A stretch of DNA of 64,000 nt from Cladocopium goreaui. Taxonomy: Eukaryota; Sar; Dinophyceae; Suessiales; Symbiodiniaceae. How positions within the stretch are numbered: the first letter of the stretch is position 1; each line of letters begins with the position of its first letter. The notes below the pieces were generated by a model. It searched no databases and had not been told where the DNA came from. It worked only from the letters and a program-made list of their open reading frames with translations. Of this stretch, positions 30,600 through 61,281 are shown piece after piece. The translations under genes were made by a program, and so were the position numbers. The stretch covers positions 782,353 through 846,352 of the forward strand of contig CAMXCT020000524.1 of the NCBI GenBank assembly GCA_947184155.2, written 5' to 3'.

Positions 30600-31305
30600 G
30601 CCCCATATGGACAATTGAGTGTGTATTCATGATGAATCTGAGGTGGCTCTGAGTGCTGTTTTGCGTCTGTCTTTTCACCTTAGCTCTGGTTCACACCACG
30701 TTTCACCTTTTTAATCTCACTTTCCATGTGCCACATGGTAGTGTCATTGCTGGCTTTTGGATCGTGTCAAGAATGGGCAATCTGTGTGATCGTTGCCTTG
30801 GCTCGCACTTTGTGATCTCGAGGCTCCTGGCTGGGGGGAGCCTCGGTTTCCGCACTGTGCTGTGTTGCTTCTCATGCTCACAGATTGCCGTATGGCTATT
30901 TCGTGGTTTGTGTTTGCGCTTTCGGTGTTTGGCATACCTATCCATTGGTGATATATCATCTTTGCCAATACGTTTCACTTTTAATGAACTGACCAGCTGA
31001 TCATCACCGTGCTGTTTTTTTGTGGTTCGTTGGTTTCTTTTTTGGTTGTGGTTTTTGTGGTTTGTGTTTTTGTGTTTTTTCTTTTGTTTGTGTTCTGTTT
31101 TGGTTTTTGTCGTTCTGCTGGGTGCTATTGCACAGTGACAGCTCAATGGATTATGTATCGATCCAATTCAGTTCTCTTTTGGATGCACATTGTCGTAATG
31201 ATTGATGTTGCCACTGCACTAATTCGGTGAATTTGCAAAATGCAACTGGCATTCCGGCTTGATAAACGACCTGGCAAGAGCCATATAGCGTTGGACGGAA
31301 AAAAA
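30600..31305 (+). mobile_element. Copy A: detached 3' end of the giant helicase/methyltransferase element
   Basis: This block aligns by eye with the 3' non-coding end of copy B (about 60360-61080). Shared landmarks in the same order: TTTTCACCTTA; TTTGTGATCTCG with a hairpin holding loop TGGCTGGGG; GGTTTCCGCA; a GT-rich tract; GGATTATGTATCG; CTGGC(A/G)(A/G)(G/A)AGCCATA; and the terminus GCGTTGGACGGAAAAAA. The similarity stops right at the A-run (31299-31305). No coding part of the element precedes it; the C-rich minisatellite lies there instead. A 3'-only copy ending in an A-run is what 5'-truncated reverse-transcribed insertions look like. Confidence 0.75.
30819..30845 (+). promoter_or_regulatory. 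Conserved 3'-end RNA hairpin, copy A
   Basis: A perfect 9-bp stem CGAGGCTCC / GGAGCCTCG encloses the loop TGGCTGGGG. The same loop sits on different stems in copies B and C. Confidence 0.85.
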
Positions 31306-31681
31306 TACAGCATGCGCATGAATTGCCATGCAGCCCTTCCCAACCGTAACATGCTTCCATGAGATGGATTAAAAAAGTCACTGCGCGTTTGCTTTATCCT
31401 TGTTGTTGTTTCTGCCTCTGGCGTTTTGAGTTTTCTTCCCAGCCCTTGGCTCCAGCTGTATCATGACCAAACGTGATTCCCTACTTGCCGGTTTCACTTC
31501 TCCTTCACCTCGATGAGCATGCCGCGTCGTCATTCACGATCTCATGGATATCCCAGCAGCACTGCCGCACCATCCGATTCAAGCCATCCCATCGCAGTGT
31601 CACTGATCTCACTGAACCCACTGCTATGCAGGATCCAGTGGCCAATCTTCTCATTACGGATACTCGACCGCGGCTCCAGCA
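31306..31681. other. Non-coding stretch between copy A and the next ORF
   Basis: No convincing frame or repeat is visible. Short frames on both strands overlap from 31473 onwards, and the better one continues into the ORF at 31682. Confidence 0.4.
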
Positions 31682-32341
31682 GTGCCCTCCCGGCCTCCAC
31701 CGATCATCAGACTCCGATCTCTCCAAGACGAGAAGAAGCGTATCCACTCCAGATTGAGATTGAAGGAAAAACGCCGCCAACTTCATGCTCATTACTTTAC
31801 AGAAGTTCGAACACCCCAGGCCGATAGCTCCCAGCCAGACCTTCGTCGCCTTATGGTGACGGAAGTGGATCGACATGGAGTACATCGAAATAGGCAACCG
31901 GAGTTCTTCTTCAATGGGATCGTTGGCCACATCCGTGCTGATCAAAACGGATGGATAGACTCTATTACTGGCGTCGGCATTTCCAAATTCCTGAAGTGCG
32001 ATGGAAATTGGTATCAATACTCGCAAAAGTCCAACAGCGGGAACCAAGCGGGCCAAGAATCTCTGCCGGGATCGGATATTGAGGACATGGATTCCCGCGT
32101 CGTCCATGCCGAAGCCGCATCGGCACCGAGTCAGATCCACCAGCTGGCCACCGTTCTTTGTAACATTCTCAACAATGACAGAGAAGGCAACTTGGCTATC
32201 CTCGAGAAATTGGAGAGCCCAAGAACTAACCCGATCCAGATCTTTTCCAGCAGACTTGGGCCCACCTTGCTAGACCACTTGCCAATTGTCGCAGGAAGCC
32301 AACAAATGGAGGCGCTTTCCGACATCAGCGATTCAGTCTGA
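31682..32341 (+). CDS. Hypothetical protein, 219 codons
   Basis: The frame reads as a plausible protein: a very basic N-terminus (RSLQDEKKRIHSRLRLKEKR), then a mixed segment (FFFNGIVGHIRADQNGWIDS, ITGVGISKFLKCDGNWYQYS) and an acidic, Leu-rich C-terminus (ATVLCNILNNDREGNLAILE). Such composition is better than in the competing minus-strand frame at 31505-32140, which is mostly a mirror of it. The first Met is probably not the true start, since basic sequence precedes it without a clear signal. I do not recognise the family. It lies just after copy A, so it may belong to another mobile element. Confidence 0.4.
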   Translation: MPSRPPPIIRLRSLQDEKKRIHSRLRLKEKRRQLHAHYFTEVRTPQADSSQPDLRRLMVTEVDRHGVHRNRQPEFFFNGIVGHIRADQNGWIDSITGVGISKFLKCDGNWYQYSQKSNSGNQAGQESLPGSDIEDMDSRVVHAEAASAPSQIHQLATVLCNILNNDREGNLAILEKLESPRTNPIQIFSSRLGPTLLDHLPIVAGSQQMEALSDISDSV

Positions 32342-33452
32342 AAACCTTGGGCCGGTGTTCTGAGCAACTCGGATAATTCAGCTGCAGATTTCCTCCCTGT
32401 ATTTTGATTTTGTGTGGAAGGTAACCTCAACCTTCGAAACCTCTACTTGGGTCAGCTTCCAGGACGTCGTCCTTAACTCACTAAGACCGTCCACGCAACC
32501 AAGTCAACCACTCCCAGAGCTCAGCCACTTTTACCACAACACACAAGAGAAAAGATGTTTGCTCATGTCGCTATGGTTCTTGTTGGTGTGTCACGCCTTG
32601 ACACAAAATGATGCGGAGTCGCCAGTTAGCATCTTTCTGCCAACTTCACAAAAGCGATCAAAAACACATGTCCTCACAAAAAGTCTTTACATCAAGACAT
32701 GGTTTGTTTGTTTAAATAAGTTTGAGTGTTTGAAAAACGTTGAAACATTTCAAGCACCAAAACATGATTCATGATGTCTCCCTCAGATCTGTTAGCAACT
32801 CCAGTTCTGAATGCCTTTCAGAACGTTGCTCTCGCTATCATCATTGAGAGACAAACAAACTAAACTTCTCCGATCAATGTCAAACAAAGTTCCTTCTTCC
32901 GAAGTCACAAAAATGAATTCTACGATCTTCTCACGATTCCTTCGTGCACTTCGTCGACGACAACTAAAGCAAAACATATGGAAAATGGTTTGATTTTCCA
33001 TGTCACTATACAAATTCAAATCCTCAATGTGTTCTCCGTGCAATCAAAGTACTCAAAGAAGACGAAAAGTATATCGATGTAGGGTTTCGTCATCTCCAAT
33101 AAAACGTGCAGAACATGAAACGTGCAAATACGATGTCAACCATCACGGTTGAGCCCACCATCAAGGTGAAAACCAAATTCACTTCTTCCAGTGCAGAAAA
33201 CATCCAATGGATTCATCTCACCACAGATGTCAAATTTTCACACCCCCTTTTGAGATGAACTCCATTCCATATACAAGCTATAACCCATCCAGACTTCAGC
33301 ACATATCGCCCAAGCTCGACAGGTCAATACATAAGGGTGCCCTTAGCCGAAGGGCTACATAGTGACCACTCATCCAGTTCGACAATCTTGCAAACTACAG
33401 TTGTCCACATAGAATGAGATCCTGTATAGATCCAACCACCATCCCAGTGTCA
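32342..33452. other. Non-coding stretch; possible 3' end of the second Copia element
   Basis: No long frame is seen. The second Copia element reads towards it, so its 3' LTR could lie here. I compared it by eye with 41.07-41.4 kb, where the 5' LTR would be, and found no matching repeat, so the LTRs are either lost or too diverged to see. Confidence 0.35.
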
Positions 33453-33995
33453 TCAATCACAAAACTCTCGACGTACGGTAGTTCCTGCATAGAATGGCAC
33501 ATTAGCCGCTTTGCAGTCCACCAAATCTCGGGCCTTAATGTACCTGGACCAATCCCAGGCAGGACCCTTCGCTGAGTCCTTGGTCAAATGTTTTCGACTC
33601 CATGAAACATAGCTGGGATCTTTCTCGAAGACAGTCTTGTAACTCATCTTCTCTTTCTCATACTTTCCAAATGCAAACTTGGTCTTTCCCCACATTGTCA
33701 TACTTGTAACACCAGCTGGAAGCAAGGCCTTTGTGGCCAAATCTTCGGTGCCTTCCACGGGCTCCATGAAACTACTTCCAACCACCCAATCTGACTCTGT
33801 GTCGACCTCAAACTCTGCATCTTCAATTCTGCGCTTTGATGCATCGGTCATTGCACCACTTGATTCAGCTGTCGGCAATGGCATCTGAGAAGTACGACGC
33901 TGTGCCAACTGTTGAAACATCTTCTCATCCTCAATGCTCCAATTGGATGACGCCATGGCTGCAAAATCAAACCGCGTCCGGTAGTGAAAAAGCAC
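33453..33995 (-). CDS. ORF downstream of Copia-2 pol, with a GK-x(n)-DPSYVSW motif
   Basis: The 180-codon frame begins with an acidic/polar part (MASSNWSIEDEKMFQQLAQR; this internal Met at about 33956 is a better start than the listed first one) and ends with FAFGKYEKEKMSYKTVFEKD, PSYVSWSRKHL. The pattern GK-(basic)-Y-x-x-V-x-x-x-DPSYVxW recalls the small C-terminal domain found in exodeoxyribonuclease X-like and related DUF3820-type proteins ('FGKYKGK ... YLRWL'). It lies between pol of the second Copia element and its expected 3' end, on the same strand, so it is probably carried by that element. The match is to a short motif only. Confidence 0.5.
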   Translation of the reverse strand: MLFHYRTRFDFAAMASSNWSIEDEKMFQQLAQRRTSQMPLPTAESSGAMTDASKRRIEDAEFEVDTESDWVVGSSFMEPVEGTEDLATKALLPAGVTSMTMWGKTKFAFGKYEKEKMSYKTVFEKDPSYVSWSRKHLTKDSAKGPAWDWSRYIKARDLVDCKAANVPFYAGTTVRREFCD

Positions 33996-34282
33996 TAGAC
34001 CGTGGCCAAACTCTTAGGAGCAATCAACCTAGAACGTTAAACGAAGTGTCGAACCGCCATCACTTTCGTGATAGGCACAGTGACCTTTCATATTGTTCTG
34101 CGCTGCGCACACCGCATCTTACAGCATCGCGCAACAAAACTCTGCACAAAATGAAACACAGTGAAAACTCCTGTTTGTCTTTGGCAACGTTTGTTTGAAA
34201 CAACATGCAAAACAAGAAAAATGAAACGTGACGTCAACTTCTGTCTCTCTCTCTGTCACAGGGCCCCCTTTCAAACGAAAAT

Positions 34283-34620
34283 TCACTTCTTCTTCGAAGC
34301 ATGTTTGACCGCAATCAAAATGTATCTTGCCAACTTTCGGTTGTAAAACGCTGTCTCAGCATAGTTGATTTGATAAAGTTCTGCGTGTGTCTGACATGTA
34401 CATGTAGAAAGCTTGGAGTGGAGATTTAATGCAAACCAAGCTGAATTGGAAACAAACTTCAATGTCTTTCCAATCGGAATACCATCCTTGTTCTGACATC
34501 CAGTCTTGCACAATCTCACCAAAGCCTGATGCCTCATGTCAAAACTCTCCAAAAGATTCACTGTCTCAGGTCGGGACCAAATGGTATTTCGTTCTGGAAG
34601 CTCAAACGAAACATGAGTCT
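34283..34620 (-). pseudogene. Frameshifted C-terminal continuation of Copia-2 pol
   Basis: The pol frame loses its character after GGYFKHADS near 34615, while the neighbouring frame continues with VSFELPERNTIWSRPETVNL, then LVRLCKTGCQ and GIPIGKTLKFVSNS. Together with the preceding ASTPCGSGSPLRNF in the pol frame, this looks like one domain behind RNase H, split by a one-base change. The motif set (TPC...; FELP.N.IW) has a faint methyltransferase-like look, but I cannot assign it. Confidence 0.5.
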
Positions 34621-37973: not shown

Positions 37974-37976
37974 CCC

Positions 37977-39230: not shown

Positions 39231-39420
39231 TCTTGCCAGCACACAACCCATGTCAGCCACTTCAGTTTCCAATACTTCTGACTCACGAGTACAGTACAGC
39301 TGTCGCAACCTCTTGCCAGCGCACAACCCGTGTCAGCCAGTTCAACTTCCCCTGACTCATGAGTACAGCTGTCGCAACCTCTTGCCAGCACACAACCCAT
39401 GTCAGCCAGTTCACTTTCAA
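39218..39420 (-). repeat. Tandem repeat at the gag/protease junction, three units of 69-80 bp
   Basis: The core agctgtcgcaacctcttgcc begins at 39218, 39298 and 39367. On minus each unit codes for a variant of ELADMGCVLARGCDSCTHE. Unit lengths of 80 and 69 bp are not multiples of three, so successive copies are pushed into different frames and disconnect gag from protease. Confidence 0.9.
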
Positions 39421-41407: not shown

Positions 41408-41965
41408 TTAGGGCTCAATATCATGCCAAAAGAGGCCATTATAGCCTGATCCAGTCATATGTGCATTGAAAGATTCGACATCTTGAGCGTTTTGCTCTTC
41501 GAGATCCAACTCATGCTGACGTAAAAGATGAGCATCAACATCATCTTGAGCGTCTTCGAAATCAGAAGTTGGTTGATCCAGCTCTGTTATTAAACTTAAA
41601 GCTGGCGAAAAAGGTGGATTTTCAACGGTTTGTTGCAAGGGAATTAAGGGCGGAACACTTCGAATGAACTTGACCAACAGTAAAACAGAAAGAAAATCTG
41701 CAGCAGAAAACAACACAGAACTCAACAGCTCAGGTGTTCCGAGTCCCTTAAATTGATGAAAAGAAATCAACTCGCGGATCAAACAATTTGCAAAAGAGAG
41801 ATCGTCAATCAATTGATCGAGAGCCACATTTGAAAGAGAGGAAGAGAACAAATAGATAGAAGTAGCAGGATGAGGGACAAAGAAATTTGAAATTGGTTCA
41901 AAATGGCCGGAAAATGCAGCGTGAATTATGTATGGAGGATCAACTTGACCAATTAGATCAATCAT
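41408..41965 (-). CDS. Hypothetical protein, 185 codons
   Basis: The minus-strand frame has protein-like composition: a hydrophobic middle (LFSAADFLSVLLLVKFIRSV) and an acidic, Gln/His-rich C-terminus (DDVDAHLLRQHELDLEEQNA). It overlaps the first 80 bases of the plus-strand ORF at 41887, whose first codons are the weaker reading. No family is recognised. It lies between the 5' side of Copia-2 and the giant element and could mark a divergent gene or be an element remnant. Confidence 0.35.
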   Translation of the reverse strand: MIDLIGQVDPPYIIHAAFSGHFEPISNFFVPHPATSIYLFSSSLSNVALDQLIDDLSFANCLIRELISFHQFKGLGTPELLSSVLFSAADFLSVLLLVKFIRSVPPLIPLQQTVENPPFSPALSLITELDQPTSDFEDAQDDVDAHLLRQHELDLEEQNAQDVESFNAHMTGSGYNGLFWHDIEP

Positions 41966-44103
41966 CTCTGGTACAATTACTAAAACAAAAAGTGGGGGCT
42001 GTTAATTTTTCCATTCGTTGGTGCCAGGTTGACCGGTCGCAGCAAAAGTGTCTGTGTTTTGACATCGAGATTAAACATGAAGACTCTCTACCTCTTTCAC
42101 TGGATTGTGACCCTTGCCAAGTTGTAATTCAGCACCAGTGCCCCTCTGCAGAAGATTTTCGTGCTGATGTCTCCCTTACCGAAGTTGAAACTAGGCGGGA
42201 TCACTGGAATAAAGTCATTGCTCAACAAATGATCCCTAAAGAAGGCAGAATCAGTCATCTTTCCTTTGAACCAAACAAGAAACAGTCAGCCAAAAGATAC
42301 TATGATTTGCGTACCACTGTCATTGATTCTATGCAGGACTTCACCAACATCATTGCCATTGCGTCTCAACCGCCTGCGTGGTTTTTCTCGCCTAAAGAGT
42401 TGCATATACCCTTGATGGAATGCTTACAAAAAGTTAATTTTTGTGACAACTCTTTCATCCAGGAATCCTTTGTGACGAATCCTGACACTGTCAAGATTGA
42501 TTTACTTCATCACGAATTTATCAAGCATAGGGACCACCAGAAGTGGCTTTTTTATCATATCGTGCTTGGTCCAGAACATTGTTTTCATTTGAAATCTATC
42601 CACCTTGAGCGTGATGAATGGAAGGTACGATACTACGATGAATTGATCATACGTACTTTTGAACCCTCCTCAATTTTTGTCACACTCCCACCTGGAATTT
42701 CAATATCGCAGGTCGTCGACAAAACGCAATGTTGTCACCTCCGAGAGGCACATGCCTGTATCGTACCATCACAAAGAACCCCTGACGTTGGCACTATCCA
42801 TGCGGGATTGAAAGAGCAGTATACTAATGCCACACCGACTGCTAATTTTCCAAACGGTCATGGAATGAACAGCGCTAAGAGTGTGCCCTCCCACGGGCAA
42901 TCGAGTCCAACACCATCAGGTAGCAGACCTACTTATCGCCCACCTCACAAACCCAGGCAGGTTAGAGGATCTCCCAAAATGCCTCCTGAGGGTGATGTTG
43001 AAATGCAGCCTGCGCCAACGAATGACAGCAAACACCCAGAACCTCCGGAAACGCACCTTCAGTCAGATACTGGCGAACACTGTGAAGATGTACCCATGGA
43101 ATGTGTTGCAACAGCTCTTGATCCGGTTGACGACAACACTCATAGTTCTGACAAAGACTCCCAACAAGACAATGATACCCTCCATGGTCGCAACCCCCTT
43201 GCCTCTGACAACAACCTTGCCATGGCCAACCTCGGTCAGAATCACCCTCGCGAACCAGGACAACATGCCCATGATGGCCTTACGAACAACCCCAGTTCCC
43301 CCAAGGCAAAACACTTGCATCACAATGCGAATATGCCCACTGATCACAAAGATGTCGCCAACGTGGGGTACCCACGGTTGTGTGACACTTCCCAATCTAC
43401 TGCCCAGACAAATTTTGTACCTAAAGCCACTGCGCAACCCTTACTACTGGACTGCCCCACTCAGCGACATGATGCCATCCACAGACCCACTCGCACCCAT
43501 TCCACGCCTCAGGCCACAGGACCATTCAACCCTCCTACATGTATCGCCAATGACCCAACGTCTAAGCAACAAGACCATTCTAGCAATCTTTCCTTAAAAG
43601 CTGGCTTACCAACACAAAAGAGTCGTCAGACCAGCCGACAGACGAGCCGCAGCCAAGATGAGCATAGGAATGTTCCTAATCAGCCACCCGAAACTGTCCT
43701 AGACCTTTTAACACAAAATGCCCCCTATCAGCAACTAGATGACAATGCTAATGAACATGCTCCTGGCGATGAAGTGATCTTTGTCAAGGCCTCACATAGC
43801 CCTATCGACAACATTCTATGTGGCAGCGAACAAAGCAGTAGTCTCCTTATTTCCAATAGAGAAATCATCACTGGATGGCCCAGCTCATTTTCCCATGCTG
43901 ATTGCGACTACTTTGCCAAGCTTGCAACGTGTTATCTTATTAAATTCCCAAGCTACATGTGCTATGCGGTTACTGCACTTCGTGTCCTCACCCATGCACC
44001 TTGGAATGATAACATGTTTCATGGCCACATCAGAGAATTAGTCTTATGTGCTATCGGCAATGGATGCATGAGGGACTACTTAGATAGATGGTTGAGTGCG
44101 TGA
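41932..44103 (+). CDS. N-terminal half of the protease-methyltransferase protein (USP Cys box)
   Basis: The frame is open from 41887; the Met at 41932 (MEDQLDQLDQ) is my choice because it starts the protein-like part. Residues about 20-290 form a folded domain of unknown type (FFSPKELHIPLMECLQKVNF, WLFYHIVLGPEHCFHLKSIH, WKVRYYDELI). A long disordered Pro/His/Asn-rich region follows, including a GYP element coded by a palindrome at 43362. The end reads KFPSYMCYAVTALRVLTHAP, which matches the Cys box of ubiquitin-specific proteases (catalytic Cys near 43961), and then a helix ending in LDRWLSA and TGA. The rest of a USP fold is missing here but is found, on the other strand, at the start of the methyltransferase ORF. 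Confidence 0.7.
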   Translation: MEDQLDQLDQSSLVQLLKQKVGAVNFSIRWCQVDRSQQKCLCFDIEIKHEDSLPLSLDCDPCQVVIQHQCPSAEDFRADVSLTEVETRRDHWNKVIAQQMIPKEGRISHLSFEPNKKQSAKRYYDLRTTVIDSMQDFTNIIAIASQPPAWFFSPKELHIPLMECLQKVNFCDNSFIQESFVTNPDTVKIDLLHHEFIKHRDHQKWLFYHIVLGPEHCFHLKSIHLERDEWKVRYYDELIIRTFEPSSIFVTLPPGISISQVVDKTQCCHLREAHACIVPSQRTPDVGTIHAGLKEQYTNATPTANFPNGHGMNSAKSVPSHGQSSPTPSGSRPTYRPPHKPRQVRGSPKMPPEGDVEMQPAPTNDSKHPEPPETHLQSDTGEHCEDVPMECVATALDPVDDNTHSSDKDSQQDNDTLHGRNPLASDNNLAMANLGQNHPREPGQHAHDGLTNNPSSPKAKHLHHNANMPTDHKDVANVGYPRLCDTSQSTAQTNFVPKATAQPLLLDCPTQRHDAIHRPTRTHSTPQATGPFNPPTCIANDPTSKQQDHSSNLSLKAGLPTQKSRQTSRQTSRSQDEHRNVPNQPPETVLDLLTQNAPYQQLDDNANEHAPGDEVIFVKASHSPIDNILCGSEQSSSLLISNREIITGWPSSFSHADCDYFAKLATCYLIKFPSYMCYAVTALRVLTHAPWNDNMFHGHIRELVLCAIGNGCMRDYLDRWLSA
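43362..43376. repeat. Palindrome CGTGGG-GTA-CCCACG
   Basis: Perfect 6-bp arms with a 3-nt centre. In frame it codes for the NVGYPRL part of a disordered region. One of a set of GGGTACCC-centred palindromes in this element. Confidence 0.8.
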
Positions 44104-48415: not shown

Positions 48416-48430
48416 AGTAGCTGTCTGGTC

Positions 48431-50717: not shown

Positions 50718-51350
50718 CCCTGCAGACAGCTAGCACCGCGTGCACCTGACTGTGTGAAACCACCTGATCAGTGCCATTTCTAATGCCGCCTATTCCACAG
50801 ATGCGCCAAGAGAAAAGCAGCTGCGTGCCAGGATAATACCCCCTAAACCTACCGTATGGGAGAGTACCCACTCAAGTATGGCCCACATAAGCCGGAGTAA
50901 GGGGATTTATGGGGATTTTTGTCTACTAAGCTGTCTTGGTTAGGCGTGTGTCCCAGGTCCTGTCGCCGTCAGTCAATTCAACTTCTGTCGAACTCACATG
51001 TACTTTGGGCAAAGAAGGTTGCATAAACTGTCAGTGGCTCAATTGTTCGCACTGCAGCTTTTGTGGCTCCACTAGTTTTCATAGCTAGGTCAGCCATCCA
51101 ACATCAATTCGCACACCAAGGTGTTAGACAAACCCTGATTGTTTTGTTTCCTACTTGTTTCACCTCCAACGAATTGGCCCCGCAACGGGGAACCCTGACC
51201 CCGGGTGCCGGGCGTTTGGGGTTTCCCTAGCCTAGCCAATCCTGTTGACACATTTTGCACTCTCTGCCCATATAGCATTCACTATTTTCGGCTGGTCACT
51301 TGGCACCTGACACCCGGGTACCGGCTGTTCAGGGTCAAGCCTGCGTCAGC
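50718..51350. other. Spacer before the hydrolase-helicase ORF
   Basis: No coding frame is seen. It contains a G/C-rich near-palindromic piece at 51183-51225 (ggggaaccctgaccccgggt, gccgggcgtttggggtttcc) and the palindrome CCGG-GTA-CCGG at 51314-51324, 27 bases before the first ATG of the next ORF. Confidence 0.45.
51314..51324. repeat. Palindrome CCGG-GTA-CCGG upstream of the helicase ORF
   Basis: Same core and nearly the same flanks as 50295-50305. Confidence 0.65.
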
Positions 51351-54300
51351 ATGCTGCAACAGCTTATGACACCAAATAGGTTCATTTCATTGGCGTCGCC
51401 TGACCCTGATGACTCAGATACAGACATCGAACCAGCAGAGCCAACCGCCCCAGATAACACAGTCGAGGATGTGTCAATGGACAGTGATACAGAATACTTT
51501 GACGCCCTCGAAACAGAAGATGACGCTCCGTATTTCCAACAAGGGGCTGAGCCTCCCCCAAGGGAACAGTGGGAAACTGCCGCACCTATAGATTTCTTCA
51601 ATGTACAGGAGGTCACACAAATAAGCCACCAGCTTGATGAACTTTTCCTCTCGGAAAAAGAAATTGAGACCCCACTCGGCATGGACGATATCAAACAAAG
51701 GTGGAAATGGGCCGATGTCGGCTCTTGTCGAATGCCCCGGTCACCCCTGACATACCCTGCGCTCATGGTCGACGAAGGGAACGGCATCCGACGCCCCGCA
51801 GCCAGCCAGGTCCATCATAGAACGCTTTTCCAGTGGATCATAGATAATCTCTCATGGTTGCCACAGTATGCCACTGTCTATGTTTATGTGGACAACCGCA
51901 AACTGTCAGGCACTGATCCTCCAGCCTACTGGCCGCATTTTGCACCCTGGATCAAAGGCCGATGTACAGTAACTGGCCCCTACCGGGAGAAAACGACTGC
52001 TATCCACTTTCCCATTCATGCTGACACAGGTTTGCATCAGGTCCATTATACCTGGGCTGGTGCTGCAGCCCTGGAGGCGCTGTGCTTAATGTTTCCCACT
52101 GTAAATTTTGCACTCATCGACTCTGACTGCGTGCCGACCTCATTGTTTGAGATAGCCGAACTAATCAATCTTATGACGGATAAGGCAAGCAGAGCCGAAG
52201 CAATGCAACACAACACAATGGCCAGCTCTAACCAGTGCCCTCCTGCAGTACTTCTTGCCACAGAAGCCAAGGCTGAACTCAATGCCGGCTTGATCATTGT
52301 GACAGGGCATATCCCGACCGATGCAGCTGATGTTGAAATGGACCAAGCAACCCCGGCAGCATTCATGCCCCCGGCTGCTGCCCAAAGCTCCTCTCCGAGT
52401 GATGCACCCGCCCCAAAGGCACGACGAATAGCCCACCCTGCCAACCGTAGATCAGCAGATGACTGGGTCACCGCACTCCAAGATAGCCGAGCCAGTTTCC
52501 TAGCTACAACCGCTGTGCCAGAAGACCCCGCGGAAGCAATGAGGGGCGGGCTACTTCTCACCCCCCTACTAGGATGTAAAGCTAGAACCCCGCTTGATTG
52601 GACACATGCATGGGCGATGCTGGGCGAATGGGCGGGAGCCATTGCTTTCCCCATCCCGGAGCAAGGAGAATGGCCGCGTCATGGAGATGGCCGATACCTT
52701 AGACCGGACTTTGTCGAGCGGACCCCGCCCTTCCTTACCTGGGCGCGCCCCATTTTCGAGCAAGGTGCACTCTCCCCTATGTCAATTTTCCCAGCCGACT
52801 TCCCCATACTCTGTCTTCCAGGAGACAAATTGTTCCAAAGCAAGGAGTTAATCATAGGGTATAGCCTGCCGCCAATAGTGCACGCCTTCCATGGGAGTAA
52901 AGTAGGCCTAGGACACCAACTTCAACAGTGGCTAAGCAAAGGGCTGCAACCGCTTGCTGTGTCGCTCATAGGAGTCGACGAGGCCCCCCCGTTATGGACA
53001 CACCCCACAGGCTGCGATTTTGTTAGAGGGAGTAAAATAGTCGCCAAGCCGCATGTCCCGCAAAACCGAAGTCTTACCAAGACGCAGGTGTTGCTTCTCC
53101 AGAGCCTTTGGACACCAGTGGAAGCCCCCAACAGCAGCAATGACCATACACCCTGGCCCAAGACTTGCGAGCTTGCCTATGTCTTCTGCGGTCAGCATGC
53201 GAGCCTCCAGCTCCCTACTGCCCCAATCCTCCCTCTGCTGGAAGCGCTGCAACGACGACTGGAAATTGACCCTAGCAACGCAGAACTAGCCATCAATGAA
53301 GTTCTTGCTAGCCATACGGACCCCAAATACACTGATTGGAAAATCACTGTCATGGATAACACCTCCTGGCAACTCAATGACGCTGACCCAGGGTCCCTGG
53401 ACGTTCAGTGCACTGGGTTGGGTGGAGGAGAACTCGATGAAGATTGGGACGTACTGCTAGCTTGCAAAAAGGAAGCACATGTGTACGGGCCATCCCTTAG
53501 CAAACAGGACGATTGGAATGCAAGGGCTGGCACAGTAGCAGGCACTGCCCACACACAAGAATACTTGCTACTGCACATCGCTATGTTTCCCATAGGTGCA
53601 CACATCTGGTGCCGTGTCTTAGGAATGCCCAGTGCGGACCAATTGCAGGCGCAGATCATCAGTCGCGCCATGAAACTGTTGCGCTTCTGTCCTATCATCC
53701 CAGCACACAGGAAACCGCCGTGGCCAGGGTACATGCATGGCCTGCGGCTTTTCACTAAGTTACTTGTTGCACATCCGCTAGTCGGAGTATGTCTGCCCCC
53801 TGAAATCCGCCCAGTAGATCTTCTGAGATTAACAGGATACATGGTAGGCTCTCTCTACATTCGAGGACACAGCGCTGGCTCGTATGCAGGAATGGTATGG
53901 GAAACCATCCTCTCGGAATTCCCAGACGTTGGTGGCAAAACCGTACTAGCAGCCATTGCGCTACCACCGTCGCTGCTGACGGCACACAACTTATCTCAGC
54001 TGAGAGAGATCCACCTCATTCACCATGCAGATGACAGGCTTTGCGTATGGAACCCGTCGAACCATGACATTAAACTGCTTAGGCAACGGGGCTTTGCAAT
54101 TACGCATATCACAGGATGGAGAGCGTACCTCGGCACTGCACAACACAACTACTCACATTGGACACGAGTTGCCCTCCCAGAGGGACGACCAGATATGGCG
54201 CAGTTAGAAGGTACCCCTGGAGTGCTCCCCTTCGAAGTGTACTCACAGGCTCCCCTCCGTCTGATCTCATGGTGCAGCTTTGAGCTCCCAAGAACAGCCA

Positions 54301-56081
54301 GAAAACTCCTGCGCGAGTTAGCTGAAATGTGCGAGCTACCTGAAACCACGACACAGGCACTTGTCACCCATATTGCTGCTCATAACTCAGAGGTCAAAAC
54401 TGAGCAGGAGGCAACCCAATACTTAGCCACGTTGGCAACTGTCACCATCTCGTCAAGGACCAAATTGCTCAACTATACCACCATGGTTCAACATTTCCTT
54501 GGCACCTTGCAATTGCCCATGGCTGTCTACATGTTAGACTACTACTTGCCCATGCTCAGCCCCAATGAAGGCTATAATGAAACAGGGTTAACAATGCAAA
54601 GTGCAGGACCTATCCGGCAACCATGGCAACCCATCGCCCTCGAATTCCTCTTCAAAGGCAGCGAGTTTGGACACTGGAAAGTCAAAGGCGGACAAGATGC
54701 ATTTGCGTTCCGACATCCAAGCCTGGGTAAAACTGAAGTGTTCAGCCTACTAGCCAGTGATGCGCACCATCACAAAGTCAGCCCCATTGGCACGGGTAGG
54801 CTTATTGCAATGGTAGGTACAGCAGAAGCACCAGCTGATGACGGAGATGACCTTCAAATCCTGTTTGGCTTGGTCCTAGCCATCACGCCGCGCGCATCCA
54901 AAAAAAAGGATGAGCTGGCTGCCTCACGTATATACAGACAGTGTAACCCAAATTCATTGAAGTTGCCTTCCTCACAGTACCAGCCATTGAATTTTTTGCA
55001 AAGGAACAACTTGAAACCCTCCAAGACTGGTATACTGATTCCGGACCAACGCCTGGACCCCATTGATGCAACCGTCCAGGGACAGAAAAGCCCGGTCCCA
55101 AAGACCTTCTTTCTCCATACAATGTGGATGTTTGGATGTACCAAGCCCACCCGCGAGCTTACCGCTGTCGCGCAAACCTCCCCGTGCAGATACCACCTGG
55201 GATTAGGCATCTATAATGTCCAAACAGCAGTGGAGGGAATGGAGGGCAACAAAAGATCACATTTCTTGCACTTGTGCGGCCAGTTGCTACGCCTAGTGCT
55301 AATTCCATGTCACGTTGAGGGCGAGCTTCACCCCTGGACCCGCTCCACAGCACTATCCTTTGCCGCTGAGCTTGACGGACATGTTTTAGGCACACTCTGC
55401 GCAGTGACAATGGCGTTGCTCACCAACCGGCTAGATCTGTGTATCCAAGGGCTTTTCGGAGCAGGCAAGTCGAAATCGATGGCAATCCTCATCCTGGCCT
55501 TGATTGAAATCGATACTACCGACAGCCTCAAAATATTATTCATTTGTAAAGAGAACTCCGGCACTAGATCCTTTGCTGACCTCCTCCTATGGCTCGACCC
55601 CCCGTCGGGGGTGTTTGGGCGCATAGGTAGGCTAGTGGGAGACCAAGAGCGCAACAAAAGCAGTTACTCCCACACGAAATTTGACATACACCCGAGAGAA
55701 AGAAGGCAAATGCTGAATAAGTGTCAGTTAATTTTAGCCACCGGGGGAACGGTAGCCCAGGATCTTACCATGCAATGGTCCACAATGGGTGGTTTTATGC
55801 AAGAGCTCTCCCTCCTGGTCATTCATGAAGGACAGCAATATGGCACTGACCGTGAAATTGCAGTCATCAGCCTGCTGAGACAGCAACCCCTGGTCTTGTG
55901 GACAGGAGACTCTGAGCAGACACCTGGCGGCATTGATCGTGCAGCTCGCAACGCAAAACGATCACGACAACTCCTGCTAGCCAAAAAGCATGGACTGCGA
56001 AGCGACCGCAATTATTACATGCCAGCCAACCTTGCCGATGCAATGATCCGACTGCTGGACGGTTCGGCCAATGAAGGTTAG
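51351..56081 (+). CDS. Giant protein: DSD-motif domain, alpha/beta-hydrolase and N-terminal part of a Upf1-like SF1 helicase
   Basis: The frame is open from 51300; the first ATG is 51351. Residues below are counted from 51300. After an acidic N-terminus, a domain with FALIDSDCVPTSLFEIAELI (about 268-290) has a DxD-like site as in some glycosyltransferases; this is a weak call. Around 840-960 lies an alpha/beta-hydrolase: nucleophile elbow RGHSAGSYAG (about 856), a possible Asp in HHADDRLCVW (about 908) and a His in AQHNYSHW (about 950). From about 1370 the helicase begins: Walker A GLFGAGKSKS (about 1386), LLVIHEGQQYG at the place of motif II (His where Asp is usual), and LVLWTGDSEQTPGG as motif III. 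The frame ends in TAG at 56081 in mid-helicase and continues one frame back. Confidence 0.8.
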   Translation: MLQQLMTPNRFISLASPDPDDSDTDIEPAEPTAPDNTVEDVSMDSDTEYFDALETEDDAPYFQQGAEPPPREQWETAAPIDFFNVQEVTQISHQLDELFLSEKEIETPLGMDDIKQRWKWADVGSCRMPRSPLTYPALMVDEGNGIRRPAASQVHHRTLFQWIIDNLSWLPQYATVYVYVDNRKLSGTDPPAYWPHFAPWIKGRCTVTGPYREKTTAIHFPIHADTGLHQVHYTWAGAAALEALCLMFPTVNFALIDSDCVPTSLFEIAELINLMTDKASRAEAMQHNTMASSNQCPPAVLLATEAKAELNAGLIIVTGHIPTDAADVEMDQATPAAFMPPAAAQSSSPSDAPAPKARRIAHPANRRSADDWVTALQDSRASFLATTAVPEDPAEAMRGGLLLTPLLGCKARTPLDWTHAWAMLGEWAGAIAFPIPEQGEWPRHGDGRYLRPDFVERTPPFLTWARPIFEQGALSPMSIFPADFPILCLPGDKLFQSKELIIGYSLPPIVHAFHGSKVGLGHQLQQWLSKGLQPLAVSLIGVDEAPPLWTHPTGCDFVRGSKIVAKPHVPQNRSLTKTQVLLLQSLWTPVEAPNSSNDHTPWPKTCELAYVFCGQHASLQLPTAPILPLLEALQRRLEIDPSNAELAINEVLASHTDPKYTDWKITVMDNTSWQLNDADPGSLDVQCTGLGGGELDEDWDVLLACKKEAHVYGPSLSKQDDWNARAGTVAGTAHTQEYLLLHIAMFPIGAHIWCRVLGMPSADQLQAQIISRAMKLLRFCPIIPAHRKPPWPGYMHGLRLFTKLLVAHPLVGVCLPPEIRPVDLLRLTGYMVGSLYIRGHSAGSYAGMVWETILSEFPDVGGKTVLAAIALPPSLLTAHNLSQLREIHLIHHADDRLCVWNPSNHDIKLLRQRGFAITHITGWRAYLGTAQHNYSHWTRVALPEGRPDMAQLEGTPGVLPFEVYSQAPLRLISWCSFELPRTARKLLRELAEMCELPETTTQALVTHIAAHNSEVKTEQEATQYLATLATVTISSRTKLLNYTTMVQHFLGTLQLPMAVYMLDYYLPMLSPNEGYNETGLTMQSAGPIRQPWQPIALEFLFKGSEFGHWKVKGGQDAFAFRHPSLGKTEVFSLLASDAHHHKVSPIGTGRLIAMVGTAEAPADDGDDLQILFGLVLAITPRASKKKDELAASRIYRQCNPNSLKLPSSQYQPLNFLQRNNLKPSKTGILIPDQRLDPIDATVQGQKSPVPKTFFLHTMWMFGCTKPTRELTAVAQTSPCRYHLGLGIYNVQTAVEGMEGNKRSHFLHLCGQLLRLVLIPCHVEGELHPWTRSTALSFAAELDGHVLGTLCAVTMALLTNRLDLCIQGLFGAGKSKSMAILILALIEIDTTDSLKILFICKENSGTRSFADLLLWLDPPSGVFGRIGRLVGDQERNKSSYSHTKFDIHPRERRQMLNKCQLILATGGTVAQDLTMQWSTMGGFMQELSLLVIHEGQQYGTDREIAVISLLRQQPLVLWTGDSEQTPGGIDRAARNAKRSRQLLLAKKHGLRSDRNYYMPANLADAMIRLLDGSANEG

Positions 56082-59000
56082 CGGCTCTTAGTCAAATCCT
56101 CAAACGAGGACAGCCCACGTTAGGTCAGCTATGGACAAGTCACCTCTCGCCGCAGGATGAGGAAGACCTCAGGGCAGCCAGCACTGTGCTTCCAGGCCTC
56201 AAAGCCCAATTTGAAGCCGCCCAGCCAAATATGCAACGACACTCCCGATTTGTGGACTCAGAACTGCTGGCAGGTACCGCTCTTAATTTTCCACGGTCCC
56301 TCGTGCGCCTTGCCTGGATTTTGCAGCATGCCGCTACCCTCCTGCCCATGGCTGGTGACATACAAGCAGTTTTAAATTCCCAGACCGCCGGAGTGAGTGA
56401 CATCCATGCTTGGGGGTTAATGCTTCCCTCCAGCTCCAGGGTTAGTCCTGTGACATACCATGCAGTGGTTGCAGTTAGATATCCCGATCTTTGCAGGCAG
56501 ATCAATGGCCTATGGGAACTGGGAAGTTTTGCCTCGGGAGGACTTCCCGACAAGCCACCAGGCTTCCAATTAGTGCTTTGGGATACTAATGCTAGGATTA
56601 ACGGGTTGGTAGCGACAGATCTAGAGACTCTTGTGTCAGAGGTACTCACCCCCTTCCCCCACAATGCTGGATTTGCAGATGGACTTTTTATAATGACCAC
56701 AGCAACTGATCACAAGAACAACTTGAACCGCTCCGTGCTCAAAAGGGATTATGTTCGCACCTTGCGTGTCGAAACAATTGCCAATTCAGCAGGAGGAACA
56801 GCACAGGTGTCAATCGTAGCTCAGCCCAGTATTGGATTTCTCAACACTAAATACTACTCCAATGGCTCTCCTACAGAAGATACCGAAGACTGCCTTGGCA
56901 GAATCACTGTCGGGCTCACCCGGTCCAAATCGTTAACCTTGCTTGTCTCTCCGCTGGACATGATGGGGCTCATGGGCATGGCGCAGGTGATTGCCACAAT
57001 TGCATACGGCATCCGGGGCCTCCGGAGAGGAGAAACGACATGGAGGTGGCCAGACTTTGATCCTGACCCAGTTCAAGAGAATCTTGCACAGTTAAGCCGA
57101 TGGTCACTGAATTCGGCAACAACCTGGGAGTTCCCTCCCCTTGCAATCGCCAATCAATACTACGATCAGCAAGCTGACGAAGTGAAGCGAGCGAGATACC
57201 GTCTGATATTGGTGCGAGGGTCAGACCTTCGATGGCTAAACAGGGAGCGCTTCCAAGAAGTTAAAGCAGGCTTACGAACTCAACACAAGTGGCTCCCCGA
57301 GCAAAATCTCCCTTTCACTGAAGTTGTCCTATATGCCTACGCTGCTGATCGCACACCCTTTCCCACCTACGTGTGCCTACCCTCAGGACTGTACAAAGCA
57401 CGCACCGGGCACATAGTAGCACAGACGGGCCCAGAACAGGAGATCCTGTCCCTGCCTGGCATATACTTCTTTGATGGATGGCGATTACACCCGAAGTTGC
57501 CAATCCCAGACCACTTGCCGCGCGCAAAAGAGGCGCCAGTCCAAGGTACCGCTCTCAATGCACCTGCACCTGATACGGAACCCAAACGGTCGCCAGAAGA
57601 AGAGGCAAGAGACATCCTTGCAGTAGCTGCCAAGAACCAGCCCGAAGATGGGCCAAACACAAGAAGAGCAGCTGTCCGCGCATGCAAGTACTTAAGAGCC
57701 ATGGTCAGCCAATATGAGACCACCATCCAAGCCGTGCATAGTGCCGCCCGCACTCACACGCAAAAAAGCAAAGGCACGGTAGGACCTGCAGTTGACTATC
57801 GCCCGCAAGGAGAAGCCCTCCCAGTCATCTCAGCAGACCTAACCTCCGAATTACTGCATTGTTTGTCCACGCTCCCAGACCCATGGCCCCTGGCTAAGAT
57901 CACCATAGACATGGAGAAACCGAGCCAGTGGGTCTCAAAGTTGTGCAGACTTTACTTTGCTGACGAGTATGCCAAGCGAACAGTTGGATTGCCCTCACGT
58001 AGGCATGTCCCGGACATCGCGGGTGCACTACGAGCAGTTCAAGCCATCCTCCCCAAACTCGAAGTCAAAATGATTGAATTCTTAGCTGAATGGATGGTCA
58101 CTCTTCTAATGCCAGCCTCGCACGTATTGGAAGTGAGGGCACCTCACCTTTCCTTTATGATGCTCAAGGAATACTGGTTTAGAGAACTGTACCTAGGCCT
58201 GAAAGTCACAGCATCCTTCGACCGCTCTGAATCATACACCAGAGTGATCGATGGTCAGGTAAGATGTATCACGCCTGAAGTCAAGCCGCAGAATTTGCAG
58301 GTCATTTGGAATGTGCAGTTTATCACAGTCTTTGTGCCGGCATGGATGATCCCGCCCGTCTACCATAGCCTGCGCAGAGAAAGCATTAAAACCGCTAGTT
58401 CTGCAAGTCCCATAGGAGTCCAGTCAGTCCGTCCCACCTGGTTTGAAGACACAACACCCAAGGACACTACATCTCAATCACCTCAAGACCCTCAAAAGGA
58501 GCAACCCCAGCCACTACATGGGCTAAAGTTAGTCATCAAAGAAGAGGTGTTACCAGCGAATGACCAACCACAATTCCCTTCGCTCGAGCTGTTGGCTGGC
58601 AGAGGCCTTTTAGCACCTGACACATGGAAGTGCAAACGTGCGCAAGTCAGCCTCAAAGCAACTATTGATGTCCCCATGTTGGGTACAATCATAGAGCAAA
58701 ATGGTGATGGACTCCTGGAAGACTCCCACATGCCCGTGGGATGGCCACTCCACATCGATGGCGCTGTCAGACAATGTTGTATTCACAGAGCTGCTAGCTT
58801 ACAAGAATTAGATGATATGCTCAAAGAATATGACATGAAAAGGGATTCAGTGGAAATCAACCATGACGCGCCTCAATGGTCCCATCATGCAGTGTGGAAC
58901 CGTAAGTATATGGAACCGAAACCAGGATATACACTGGAGCAACTATGGGCTGACTCCGAGCCTGCCATAAGCAAGAAAACAACCACGTCATATGATGTGC

Positions 59001-59482
59001 AAACAAATGACGTCCAACGTGCAGTAGCGGCCATTCAGCGTTTCCCATCCCCCATTCCTCCCGACAGCCCCTTCCTACGAGCGTTAGGGACAACAGCTGC
59101 ACTAAAAGCCCCACCGCAGACTGACACCCTAGCGCAAAGAGCTCTGGAGGAATGGGAACGCACTTTGTGTGAAAACAAGGCAGTGGCAATCCTCGCCGAG
59201 ATACAAGCCGGCCGACCAACTATAATCCACAAAGATGGTGGCGAAATGCTCATTGCCATTGTCCTTGACAGGCCACTGGCGGAAGCGAAGAAACTGGTTG
59301 ATGACCCTGCGGCATTCACTCGCGAAATGACGCGGATCCTGCGTGACAAGCAAACCCACCCACTCATCGCCCAAATGATGAAACCAGCGGAGAGCAGTAA
59401 TCCACCCACCGCCACTGCTGCAGCCAGTGGTGCTAGTAGCAGTGGAGAACCTCGCACCACCTCACACGAGCAGTTCCAGTAA
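56075..59482 (+). CDS. Continuation: helicase C-terminal part and conserved post-helicase region
   Basis: This frame opens after a TGA at 56072-56074 and is -1 relative to the previous ORF. The two overlap by only seven bases, and the sense continues (LLDGSANEG to RLAALSQILKRGQPTLG). It holds the second RecA-like domain: NSAGGTAQVSIVAQPSIGFL and the motif VI region GRITVGLTRSKSLTLLVSPL (about 56896-56955), as in Upf1-type helicases (usual form VALTRAR). A 750-residue region follows with YAYAADRTPFPTYVCLPSGL and LPGIYFFDGWRLHPKLPI, also found in copy C, then a mostly helical C-terminus and a Ser/Ala tail. The split is best explained by one lost base; a programmed -1 shift within seven bases without a slippery site is unlikely. 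Confidence 0.8.
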   Translation, partial: RLAALSQILKRGQPTLGQLWTSHLSPQDEEDLRAASTVLPGLKAQFEAAQPNMQRHSRFVDSELLAGTALNFPRSLVRLAWILQHAATLLPMAGDIQAVLNSQTAGVSDIHAWGLMLPSSSRVSPVTYHAVVAVRYPDLCRQINGLWELGSFASGGLPDKPPGFQLVLWDTNARINGLVATDLETLVSEVLTPFPHNAGFADGLFIMTTATDHKNNLNRSVLKRDYVRTLRVETIANSAGGTAQVSIVAQPSIGFLNTKYYSNGSPTEDTEDCLGRITVGLTRSKSLTLLVSPLDMMGLMGMAQVIATIAYGIRGLRRGETTWRWPDFDPDPVQENLAQLSRWSLNSATTWEFPPLAIANQYYDQQADEVKRARYRLILVRGSDLRWLNRERFQEVKAGLRTQHKWLPEQNLPFTEVVLYAYAADRTPFPTYVCLPSGLYKARTGHIVAQTGPEQEILSLPGIYFFDGWRLHPKLPIPDHLPRAKEAPVQGTALNAPAPDTEPKRSPEEEARDILAVAAKNQPEDGPNTRRAAVRACKYLRAMVSQYETTIQAVHSAARTHTQKSKGTVGPAVDYRPQGEALPVISADLTSELLHCLSTLPDPWPLAKITIDMEKPSQWVSKLCRLYFADEYAKRTVGLPSRRHVPDIAGALRAVQAILPKLEVKMIEFLAEWMVTLLMPASHVLEVRAPHLSFMMLKEYWFRELYLGLKVTASFDRSESYTRVIDGQVRCITPEVKPQNLQVIWNVQFITVFVPAWMIPPVYHSLRRESIKTASSASPIGVQSVRPTWFEDTTPKDTTSQSPQDPQKEQPQPLHGLKLVIKEEVLPANDQPQFPSLELLAGRGLLAPDTWKCKRAQVSLKATIDVPMLGTIIEQNGDGLLEDSHMPVGWPLHIDGAVRQCCIHRAASLQELDDMLKEYDMKRDSVEINHDAPQWSHHAVWNRKYMEPKPGYTLEQLWADSEPAISKKTTTSYDVQTNDVQRAVAAIQRFPSPIPPDSPFLRALGTTAALKAPPQTDTLAQRALEEWERTLCENKAVAILAEIQAGRPTIIHKDGGEMLIAIVLDRPLAEAKKLVDDPAAFTREMTRILRDKQTHPLIAQMMKPAESSNPPTATAAASGASSSGEPRTTSHEQFQ

Positions 59483-59920
59483 GCCACTTGAGGTGACGCA
59501 GAGTACCCAAGTTTCCCATCCATGCATTCAGCCTGTAACTTGACCTAGGTTGAGCGGCGTTGTCACCATGGGGTACTCATGGTTGATTACTGCCCGCTGC
59601 GACTACCTTTGCTGTCAGCATGCCGGAGCCAGTATGGGACGGGAGGCGGTGGGGGGCGGTTATAATAATCCTTTTCAGGGTTTTTAAGTTGTTTTGTTCG
59701 TGTTGTTCTATCTTAATTATTGCATGGTAGTGTAGTGCGATGTCAAAGTACATCTAGCCATGGTGCCCGTCGCCGTTTGACCTTCGCTCAACCAATTTTT
59801 CGACCGGCCAAATGATCTTCACCACACCTCCACATGCCCGTTCTCGACCAAGGTGGCAACACGGTGAGTACCAGTTGAATGCCCTGAAGCCTTAGTCCAC
59901 CTACAAACCTGTAGACAAAT
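59483..59920. other. Spacer between helicase ORF and small ORF
   Basis: No gene is seen. It carries the palindrome at 59565-59583 and a G-rich tract followed by a T/GTT-rich stretch (59640-59720). Confidence 0.5.
59565..59583. repeat. Near-perfect palindrome ACCATGGG-GTA-CTCATGGT
   Basis: Seven of eight arm positions pair. The left arm equals that of the palindrome at 47313. It is the only clear member of the set outside coding sequence with long arms. Confidence 0.75.
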
Positions 59921-59935
59921 TTGTCCTTTGGAATG

Positions 59936-60334
59936 GAGCGACCGACTCCTATCAAAGACGCCGCTGTCCATCGTCTTGCGCAGTCCATCACTCAACTGAC
60001 CCTCTGCCAGGTCACTACCAGTGAAGTCGATGATGCCACCAAACTTCTAGAGAAGGCCCGACAGAAGCTTCAAGGCATCCAAAACATCCCATCCCAGAGG
60101 GTTATTGACCTTGAGGCGGCTATACGCCAACTCCGTCAAATTGGCTGTATCTTGGATAGCTGTACCATATCTGCCAGTTACGAAGTAACCCAGGCACAGA
60201 AAGCCATACTACAGCTTCACCATACAGCCAAGGGAGCCAGCACCTCGTCTGAAGAACTCAATGCACAGATATCGCCACGCACTGATGACGAGTACAATCT
60301 CCCATACCATGAAGACGAGTTGCAAGAGCACTAA
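59936..60334 (+). CDS. Small helical protein of the giant element
   Basis: The frame is open from 59921; ATG codons lie at 59921 and 59933. It codes for about 135 residues with a strong helical pattern: VHRLAQSITQLTLCQVTTSE, VDDATKLLEKARQKLQGIQN, RVIDLEAAIRQLRQIGCILD, and an acidic end (YNLPYHEDELQEH). It is probably a coiled-coil or helical-bundle protein. It is the last ORF before the 3' end of copy B, 246 nt upstream of the conserved hairpin. No family is recognised. Confidence 0.6.
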   Translation, partial: ERPTPIKDAAVHRLAQSITQLTLCQVTTSEVDDATKLLEKARQKLQGIQNIPSQRVIDLEAAIRQLRQIGCILDSCTISASYEVTQAQKAILQLHHTAKGASTSSEELNAQISPRTDDEYNLPYHEDELQEH

Positions 60335-61080
60335 CACAGTGGTGCCTACCGGAACCAAGTTTGAGGCAGTATGATGATTGGAAAAGCAGTTCTGAGCGGA
60401 CTCTGAGTGTGCCCTGAGTGCCGTAGCCTCGATGTCATTTTCACCTTAGATCATGTTTCACTCTCCTGTTTCACTGCGGTAGTTTTTCTCACCACTTTGT
60501 TGTGACCCGGCGTTGTCGGTGTTTGCTTCAAAGTGTCAGGGTGAATGTCATGCCGTGAAGGCTGCTCTTTGTGATCTCGGGGATCCTGGCTGGGGGGATC
60601 CCTGGTTTCCGCATTGAGCTTTGTTGCTTCCTGCACCCTTTGAAGTGGCCCATGGTGATTTTGTGGTTTTTCCTTTGTTGTCTTGTGTTATGGGCCTGCG
60701 TTACATGACACATAAGTTGTCATCTGCATGCGCCGAGATGATACTAAGCTATCACCTCTTGCCTCAACAGATCTTTTTCACCCATTAACTGGAACCTGTC
60801 ACGTCACTGCTGTGTGGTTTGGTGCTTGTTTGTTTTTTGTGTGGGTTATTTTTGTTTGTGTTTGTTTTTTGTGTTGTTTTTGCTTTTGGTTCTTTGTGTT
60901 TTGGTTTTTGTTCTTTGGAACGTGACAAGGGAATAGGATTATGTATCGGTCCTCTACCAGTTTACTTTTGCGGCCCTACAGCTCGGCCCCTGCGTGAATT
61001 AATTATTAATCTCATTTGCAACATGCTTGGAAACATGTTGAACAACCTGGCGGAAGCCATACGGCGTTGGACGGAAAAAA
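60335..61080 (+). other. 3' non-coding end of copy B
   Basis: The segment contains, in order, TTTTCACCTTA, the hairpin at 60578-60604, GGTTTCCGCA, a GT-rich tract (60810-60920), GGATTATGTATCG, a small GGC-GGAA-GCC hairpin (61049-61058) and the terminal GGACGGAAAAAA. Copy A shares all of these. ORFs predicted here (for example the Phe/Val/Cys-rich ones at 60.7-61.15 kb) only translate the GT-rich tract and are rejected. Confidence 0.7.
60578..60604 (+). promoter_or_regulatory. Conserved 3'-end RNA hairpin, copy B
   Basis: Stem CGGGGATCC / GGATCCCTG (nine pairs, one G-T) around loop TGGCTGGGG. The stem differs from copies A and C while pairing is kept. Confidence 0.85.
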
Positions 61081-61256
61081 GCTCGAAAAATTATTTTTTT
61101 TTCCTTCCGATTTGGCCGATCGCACTAGGCACGGTCCTTACAATTGCGTAAGCGGTGAGAAGCAGTAAAGTATCGGACACGTGTGGTCCAAAAACGCTGG
61201 CAAATCATCACTAAAAACAAACAAAACAAAACAAAAAACGCAACCAAAAAACGACC

Positions 61257-61281
61257 CGCAAATCCCCCAGCCAGATTTGCG
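61257..61281 (-). promoter_or_regulatory. Conserved 3'-end RNA hairpin, copy C
   Basis: On minus, a perfect 8-bp stem CGCAAATC / GATTTGCG encloses the same loop TGGCTGGGG. No stem position outside the closing C-G is simply inherited from copies A and B, which shows compensating changes. Confidence 0.85.

Follow-up and report, generated by a model that had tools for sequence, protein, structure and literature searches.

We analysed a 64,000-nt stretch of the genome of the dinoflagellate Cladocopium goreaui (hereafter the window; assembly GCA_947184155.2, contig CAMXCT020000524.1, positions 782,353 to 846,352), in which three element tails, designated E1, E2 and E3, carry a hairpin with the same 9-nt loop, TGGCTGGGG, at 30828-30836 (+), 60587-60595 (+) and 61273-61265 (-), respectively. 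On the basis of sequence, folding and covariation, the apical hairpin of E1 was placed at 30819-30845 (+; arms CGAGGCTCC and GGAGCCTCG) and that of E2 at 60578-60604 (+; CGGGGATCC and GGATCCCTG), and the E3 hairpin at 61257-61281 (-; CGCAAATC and GATTTGCG) was additionally recovered with a genome pattern. The contiguous stems, with G-T pairs allowed, are 10, 10 and 8 bp long, and the three hairpins of one loop and differing stems described in the initial annotation were found where it had placed them. A fourth exact copy of the loop, at 58513-58505 (-), has a stem of just 4 bp; none of 100 shuffles of the window reached the four loop matches of the window itself. If a hairpin is required to have a loop of 9 nt and no fewer than 8 Watson-Crick pairs, the window contains just 4 distinct ones (8 counting both strands), and two of them, those of E1 and E3, have the common loop. 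As described below, there is good support for this hairpin as an RNA structure that is conserved in the 3' tails of retroposed elements.

All three hairpins lie upstream of a GT-rich tract and then of an A-run, also as annotated initially. The termini consist of GGACGG plus an A-run in E1 (31293-31305, +) and E2 (61069-61080, +) and of GGAAGG plus an A-run in E3 (61094-61108, -), with the ends of E2 and E3 standing tail to tail, 13 nt apart, and the A-run starts 472 (E1), 489 (E2) and 172 nt (E3) after the start of the loop. The 3' stretch of E1 (30640-31304, +) is homologous to the 3' untranslated region (UTR) of E2 (60335-61080, +), the two being 86% identical across 72 nt around the hairpin, 71% identical across 168 nt of the GT-rich tract and 73% identical across the final 64 nt.

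Covariation was examined in an ungapped 29-column alignment of E1, E2 and E3, in which the 9 stem pairs yield 27 cells. Across the three sequences, 7 of the 9 pairs were altered on both sides, and 96.3% of the 27 cells were paired, compared with 69.1% on average in shuffles and with 19-59% for slid controls; 8 of the 27 cells entered the double-change measure. The initial statement that most stem positions have changed on both sides holds over all three hairpins together; between E1 and E2 alone, double changes (read from the sequences) affect 2 of 9 pairs, so that most of the covariation signal comes from E3. The observed covariation was equalled by 0 of 500 shuffles on four of five measures and by 3 of 500 on the fifth (pair types). 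RNA folding predicts an identical apical hairpin in all three tails. In E1 (30805-30860, +; folding of 30780-30880) and E2 (60564-60619, +; folding of 60540-60640), the predicted fold extends through a 2x2 internal loop and a lower stem to an outer four-pair stem, which is itself compensated (GCAC/GUGC in E1 versus GCUC/GAGC in E2), while the lower extension predicted for E3 comprises two pairs at most. The folding z-scores are modest (-2.56 for E1, -1.55 for E2 and -0.98 for E3), and the case for a structure therefore rests on covariation rather than on energy. Taken together, the fold of the hairpin has been kept by compensatory change under an unchanging loop.

We also considered, and rejected, that the loop might pair with a complementary stretch of the 3' UTR, as the sole complement of all 9 nt (58505) falls within E2 coding sequence. 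The 8-mers CCCCAGCC and CCCAGCCA and the 6-mers CCAGCC, CCCAGC and CCCCAG are absent from the 3' UTRs of E1, E2 and E3 (the 6-mer CAGCCA was not searched).

Copies were sought throughout the host genome (1.17 Gb, 6202 contigs) with two patterns. Pattern 1, of the E1/E2 type, admits both the E1 and the E2 stem and gave 728 matches (0 in the control), whereas pattern 2, which fixes CTTTGTGB, the loop and the following GGT and leaves the stem free, gave 252 (3 in the control). In the first 100 of the 728 matches to pattern 1, the 5' arm was CGGGGATCC in 95, CGAGGATCC in 3 and CGGAGATCC in 2. The 100 matches listed of the 252 to pattern 2 represent 99 places, comprising 95 of the E3 type, 3 of the E2 type (one being the truncated copy L024) and 1 unrelated; by hand count, the exact 8-bp stem is present in 89 of the 95 E3-type places and differs by one change in the other 6, the stem being unconstrained in this search. 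Among the matches listed, the stems are thus nearly constant within each lineage. This constancy, together with the descent of the E1 and E2 hairpin regions from a common sequence at 86% identity, is what would be expected of a relic, that is, an inherited tail with no present function, or of a chance palindrome. We consider such an explanation very improbable, since most pairs were altered on both sides while the loop remained unchanged and the predicted outer stem was likewise compensated.

A total of 38 loci from both patterns (10 E2-type and 28 E3-type) were inspected individually. The upstream sequence was E2-type in 9 of the 10 E2-type loci, the exception being the truncated L024, and the E3-type UTR was present in 28 of 28; the E3-type loci had appeared to carry unrelated upstream sequence, but L041 indicates that this belongs to the element itself, as part of a longer 3' UTR that is incomplete in the window copy. 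A run of GA6+ was observed in the expected interval at 35 of the 38 loci versus 1 of 76 control intervals, these intervals having been defined after the first copies had been examined. The hairpin is thus located near the 3' terminus of the inspected copies, and the initial expectation that matches would sit near A-run termini was borne out. A contiguous stem of at least 8 pairs was present in 28 of 28 E3-type and 7 of 10 E2-type loci. In 20-nt bins, conservation reached 0.94-0.97 at the hairpin versus 0.43-0.93 in other bins before the A-run in 12 E1/E2-type copies, and 1.00 versus 0.66-0.97 in 29 E3-type copies, the hairpin values being inflated by search patterns that fixed part of it. In addition, L006 holds an intact E3-type hairpin that was met outside the pattern, by accident.

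The distance from loop to A-run was mostly 168-180 nt in E3-type loci (335 nt in L034) and 408-533 nt in E2-type loci. This roughly threefold difference between lineages bears on the possibility that the hairpin acts as a signal for forming or processing the 3' ends of mRNAs, be they of the host or of the element, as its position upstream of a GT-rich tract and a terminal A-run in three copies might suggest. A signal of this kind would not be expected at such different distances, and a scan of the window against Rfam gave no known RNA family at gathering scores; we therefore regard it as quite unlikely.

Several copies reveal how the elements were inserted. In L023, the copy is truncated some 105 nt ahead of the loop and has a 19-bp repeat on its flanks; L024 starts within the 5' arm of the hairpin and has a flanking repeat of about 18 bp (17 by script); L037, with a 20-bp repeat, sits inside an E2-type UTR, and L064, with a 17-bp repeat, sits beside a long interspersed nuclear element (LINE). 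Together with L033 and the second copy in L001, these four are 5'-truncated. The script for target-site duplications was run on the 38 loci and the three window copies, and as most copies exceed the 1.5 kb examined, the lack of a duplication there carries no meaning; none was found for E1, E2 or E3 by exact search, and in an approximate search, made to ask whether the E1 tail is an insert, the best match was equalled by 10 of 40 random controls. The A-runs, the 5' truncations and the duplications of 17-20 bp in four copies indicate LINE-like target-primed reverse transcription, and the hairpin sits in the retained 3' tail of the RNAs inserted in this way.

Hairpin-bearing tails are often close together in the same orientation (L001, L006, L037 and matches listed for pattern 1), for example 593 bp apart on C2, and the truncated copy in L001 starts exactly after the A-run of another copy. 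Such arrangements could result from template jumping or from a preference for A-runs.

Concentrating on the coding parts, the E2 polyprotein is encoded by two open stretches, at 51276-56078 (+; 1601 amino acids, aa) and 56075-59479 (+; 1135 aa, with weak helicase matches in its relatives), followed by a small open reading frame (ORF) at 59915-60331 (+; 139 aa). The 3' part of the E3 polyprotein ORF occupies 61768-63999 (-) and continues past the window, where it is broken by another retroelement. A longer frame of at least 1982 aa in L041 is 98.6% identical to the E3 ORF of the window over 712 residues. The sequence of the E3 product identifies it as a distant relative of the E2 polyprotein, with about 30% identity over 217-231 residues, and with 27-32% over longer stretches and up to 43% in short ones in flanking or related copies. 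The retroelement inside the E3 ORF just past the window was observed in L039-L040 (about 1418-9430 of the joined stretch, -); it carries RNase H-, reverse transcriptase- and methyltransferase-like ORFs and appears DIRS-like by eye.

The C-terminal part of the E2 polyprotein has at least 121 database matches, with clusters of up to 801 sequences, among the best 7992 candidates scored, and one relative, P0201, is 2707 aa long. Two relatives, P0086 and P0094, match the DEAD profile (PF00270) weakly (E 9e-06 and 9.4e-06; 26 and 25.9 bits versus a 26-bit cut-off), and no helicase profile of Pfam was matched by the window ORFs of E2 and E3. By eye, GAGKS, DEGQQ and a final arginine motif were read in these polyproteins as candidate superfamily 1 helicase motifs.

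Before the E1 tail, a 657-aa open frame at 26829-28799 (+) shows, by eye, candidate motifs of the endonuclease/exonuclease/phosphatase (EEP) type. This ORF has no similarity to the E2 ORFs at E 1e-3 and no match in Pfam. The last open frame of E1 ends at 29280, leaving about 1.3 kb, largely of simple repeats, before the common tail; a long simple-sequence stretch with (TAC)n and (CCCCCCTTAAGC)n arrays is located at 29680-30577. Of 68 relatives of the E1-type protein, five are EukProt entries, and two (P0137 and P0181) carry an N-terminal RNA 2'-phosphotransferase domain (Tpt1/KptA; E 1.5e-08 and 1e-07), an odd partner for a mobile element. Two attempts at modelling the E1-type structure were poor (mean predicted local distance difference test scores, pLDDT, of 37.7 and 40.3), and the Foldseek search returned no match at E <=0.001 (best E 0.2); in the non-significant list, DNase I ranked 4 and 8 (E 0.66 and 1.3) and ANGEL2 ranked 30. 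In viral contigs, neither a match to the hairpin pattern nor a relative of the E2 or E1 proteins was found.

Two polyprotein lineages, about 27-32% alike over long stretches, carry the same loop, as does, in one copy, the tail downstream of an unrelated ORF (E1), and, against the initial view, the three do not belong to one close family. This distribution also bears on the idea that the hairpin recruits the element's own polyprotein in cis, with E1-type RNAs, if real, hijacking that protein. The presence of the hairpin in both polyprotein lineages would agree with such a preference, as would E1 if it is a different ORF with an E2-like tail. An identical loop would be surprising, however, between polyproteins so divergent, even at up to 43% identity in short stretches, and we regard recruitment in cis as unlikely.

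No match to the reverse transcriptase (RT) profiles RVT of Pfam was found in the window ORFs of E1, E2 and E3, although divergent RTs could escape such a scan, nor in ten helicase-type relatives (P0001, P0002, P0006, P0009, P0017, P0086, P0094, P0193, P0201 and P0202) or ten E1-type relatives. An x-DD motif of the form searched was likewise absent from the window ORFs and from the long ORF of L041, for which no Pfam scan was made. The host genome contains 4498 RVT_1 candidates, of which 150 were scored. On C1344, a hairpin follows an RT gene at a distance of about 2.5 kb; this gene was considered as an RT-bearing partner and rejected, as the hairpin is part of a separate E3-type copy, 5'-truncated and flanked by a 17-bp target-site duplication of its own. 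The initial annotation had proposed that the stem-loop recruits the RT of its own element; a covarying hairpin near the 3' end of retroposed elements stands, while an RT of their own was not found in the ORFs scanned. Given this result, and because the covariance model of the hairpin matched none of the 20 RT loci searched, any recognition would have to take place in trans.

Our favoured explanation, put forward tentatively and with less than even confidence, is that large protein-coding retroposons, in whose scanned ORFs no RT was found, carry the hairpin in their 3' UTR as a structured RNA tag, and that this tag is recognised in trans, a LINE protein being the most likely reader. Recognition of the hairpin by an RT is plausible by analogy with known systems. 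As the loop is common to two deep polyprotein lineages, and to an unrelated ORF if E1 is one element, while the stem has drifted, its reader would be a factor common to them, able to recognise the loop whatever the sequence of the stem. A factor acting in trans seems likelier than the own protein of each element, and we infer that it would most probably be the ORF2 protein of a host LINE, which would recognise the loop regardless of the stem and start priming at the A-run, in the manner of eel UnaL2 and zebrafish L2. The element RNAs would then ride on the LINE as passengers, much like short interspersed nuclear elements (SINEs).

Stringent LINE/SINE pairs, such as those of UnaL2, ZfL2-1 and ZfL2-2, are comparable: their 3' tails, common to the partners, are described as having a stem-loop whose loop decides recognition while the stem is exchangeable (PMC4176376), and a 3'-tail stem-loop with a conserved loop is present here as well. 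In the experiments described there, zebrafish ZfL2-1 with the stem of the other element kept about half its activity, and binding by the ZfL2-2 protein followed the loop (PMC4176376). The present case differs from these pairs in that no RT-bearing partner with the hairpin was found among the RT loci searched, the elements encode proteins and are large instead of being SINEs, a distance of 160-530 nt separates the hairpin from the end, and the copies terminate in A-runs. To our knowledge, loop-specific recognition of 3' tails has been tested in few LINEs.

The main rival is that a relaxed, poly(A)-reading LINE inserts these RNAs by priming on poly(A) only, the hairpin serving ribonucleoprotein assembly, nuclear export, stability or translation through a bound protein. 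L1-type (relaxed) retroposition yields A-tailed, 5'-truncated copies of RNAs without their own RT, flanked by target-site duplications, as in processed retrocopies. The present copies share these traits but, instead of deriving from host mRNAs, form multi-copy lineages marked by a covarying hairpin at the 3' end. The rival is a real possibility: the three window copies and 35 of the 38 loci end in A-runs preceded by G, the hairpin lies 160-530 nt upstream of the A-run, and no RT locus searched matched it. By itself it does not account for the likeness that the E1 and E2 tails have kept in the hairpin, in the GT-rich tract and in the GGACGG terminus, unless the E1 tail is a truncated insert.

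Several observations weigh against a tag read in trans. The E1 ORF and its tail were observed together in a single copy, and the tail could instead be an old, 5'-truncated insert beside the ORF; the E1 arm CGAGGCTCC, which pattern 1 admits, occurred in 0 of its first 100 listed matches (728 in total). In the window copies, the loop starts 172-489 nt before the A-run, and A-tails are described as sufficient for relaxed LINEs such as L1 (PMC4176376). The 20 RT loci without a match, taken from the 150 scored and covering about 1.5 kb beyond the RT match, also count here, as does the placement of the sole RT gene adjoining a listed hairpin (C1344) beside a separate E3-type insertion. Regarding loops that lack a pairable stem, the E3-type stems listed proved intact, apart from the single changes in 6 places, while 3 of 10 E1/E2-pattern loci have no contiguous stem, L024 being cut by the insertion boundary and L006 and L007 having suffered base changes or a deletion.

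A broader version of the trans-tag explanation, in which retroposons without an RT form a consortium of giant elements, is in our view rather doubtful. It would bring together elements with at least two unrelated kinds of protein, one a helicase-type polyprotein of some 2700 aa represented by two deep lineages, the other nuclease-like and Tpt1-fused in some relatives; membership would be defined by the single fixed-loop 3' hairpin tag rather than by the coding sequence, and shared machinery would mobilise the RNAs in trans. The single copy of the E1 type lowers the odds of both the consortium and the trans-tag explanation, and the absence of the E1 stem from the first 100 matches listed lowers those of the consortium further.

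Whatever its reader, a covarying tail hairpin occurs on large protein-coding elements, with no RT found, at hundreds of places in one genome. If the reader is a LINE protein, parasitism of LINEs would be open to multi-kilobase coding elements, beyond short SINEs, and the tag would offer a simple means to find which RNAs such a LINE moves; if it is something else, these retroelements would involve an RNA-binding step not yet known.

Among reported elements, SymbioLINE-Dnmt of Symbiodinium is described as a group of retroelements with target-site duplications and a conserved 3' UTR, as here, but, unlike the present elements, these code for a DNA methyltransferase together with an RT and are said to have no poly-A tails; the word "helicase" does not occur in the main text of that report (PMC5890265). 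In insects, a helicase domain is also tied to retroelements, where it lies within an ORF2 protein with the usual LINE domains, as described in the reports concerned (PMC4686597, PMC5563155), in contrast to the elements studied here, in which no RT was found. Among the matches listed in literature searches on dinoflagellate retrotransposons with helicases, stem-loops or target-site duplications, whose scope did not extend to Repbase or most subscription journals, no title or abstract opening describes these elements or the hairpin.

Other features were observed in the window. An ORF at 45830-48415 (-) shows, by eye, motifs of C5 cytosine methyltransferases, follows a stretch that resembles a peptidase (Peptidase_C39, weakly matched at E 0.076) and may belong to methyltransferase-bearing retrotransposons such as those described in Symbiodinium (PMC5890265). 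A 745-aa open frame at 41866-44100 (+), with no Pfam match up to E 5, is convergent with it. In addition, a Copia-type element at 17591-25679 (-) lies between 135-bp direct repeats (17591-17725 and 25545-25679) and is probably a recent insertion, as these repeats are 100% identical.

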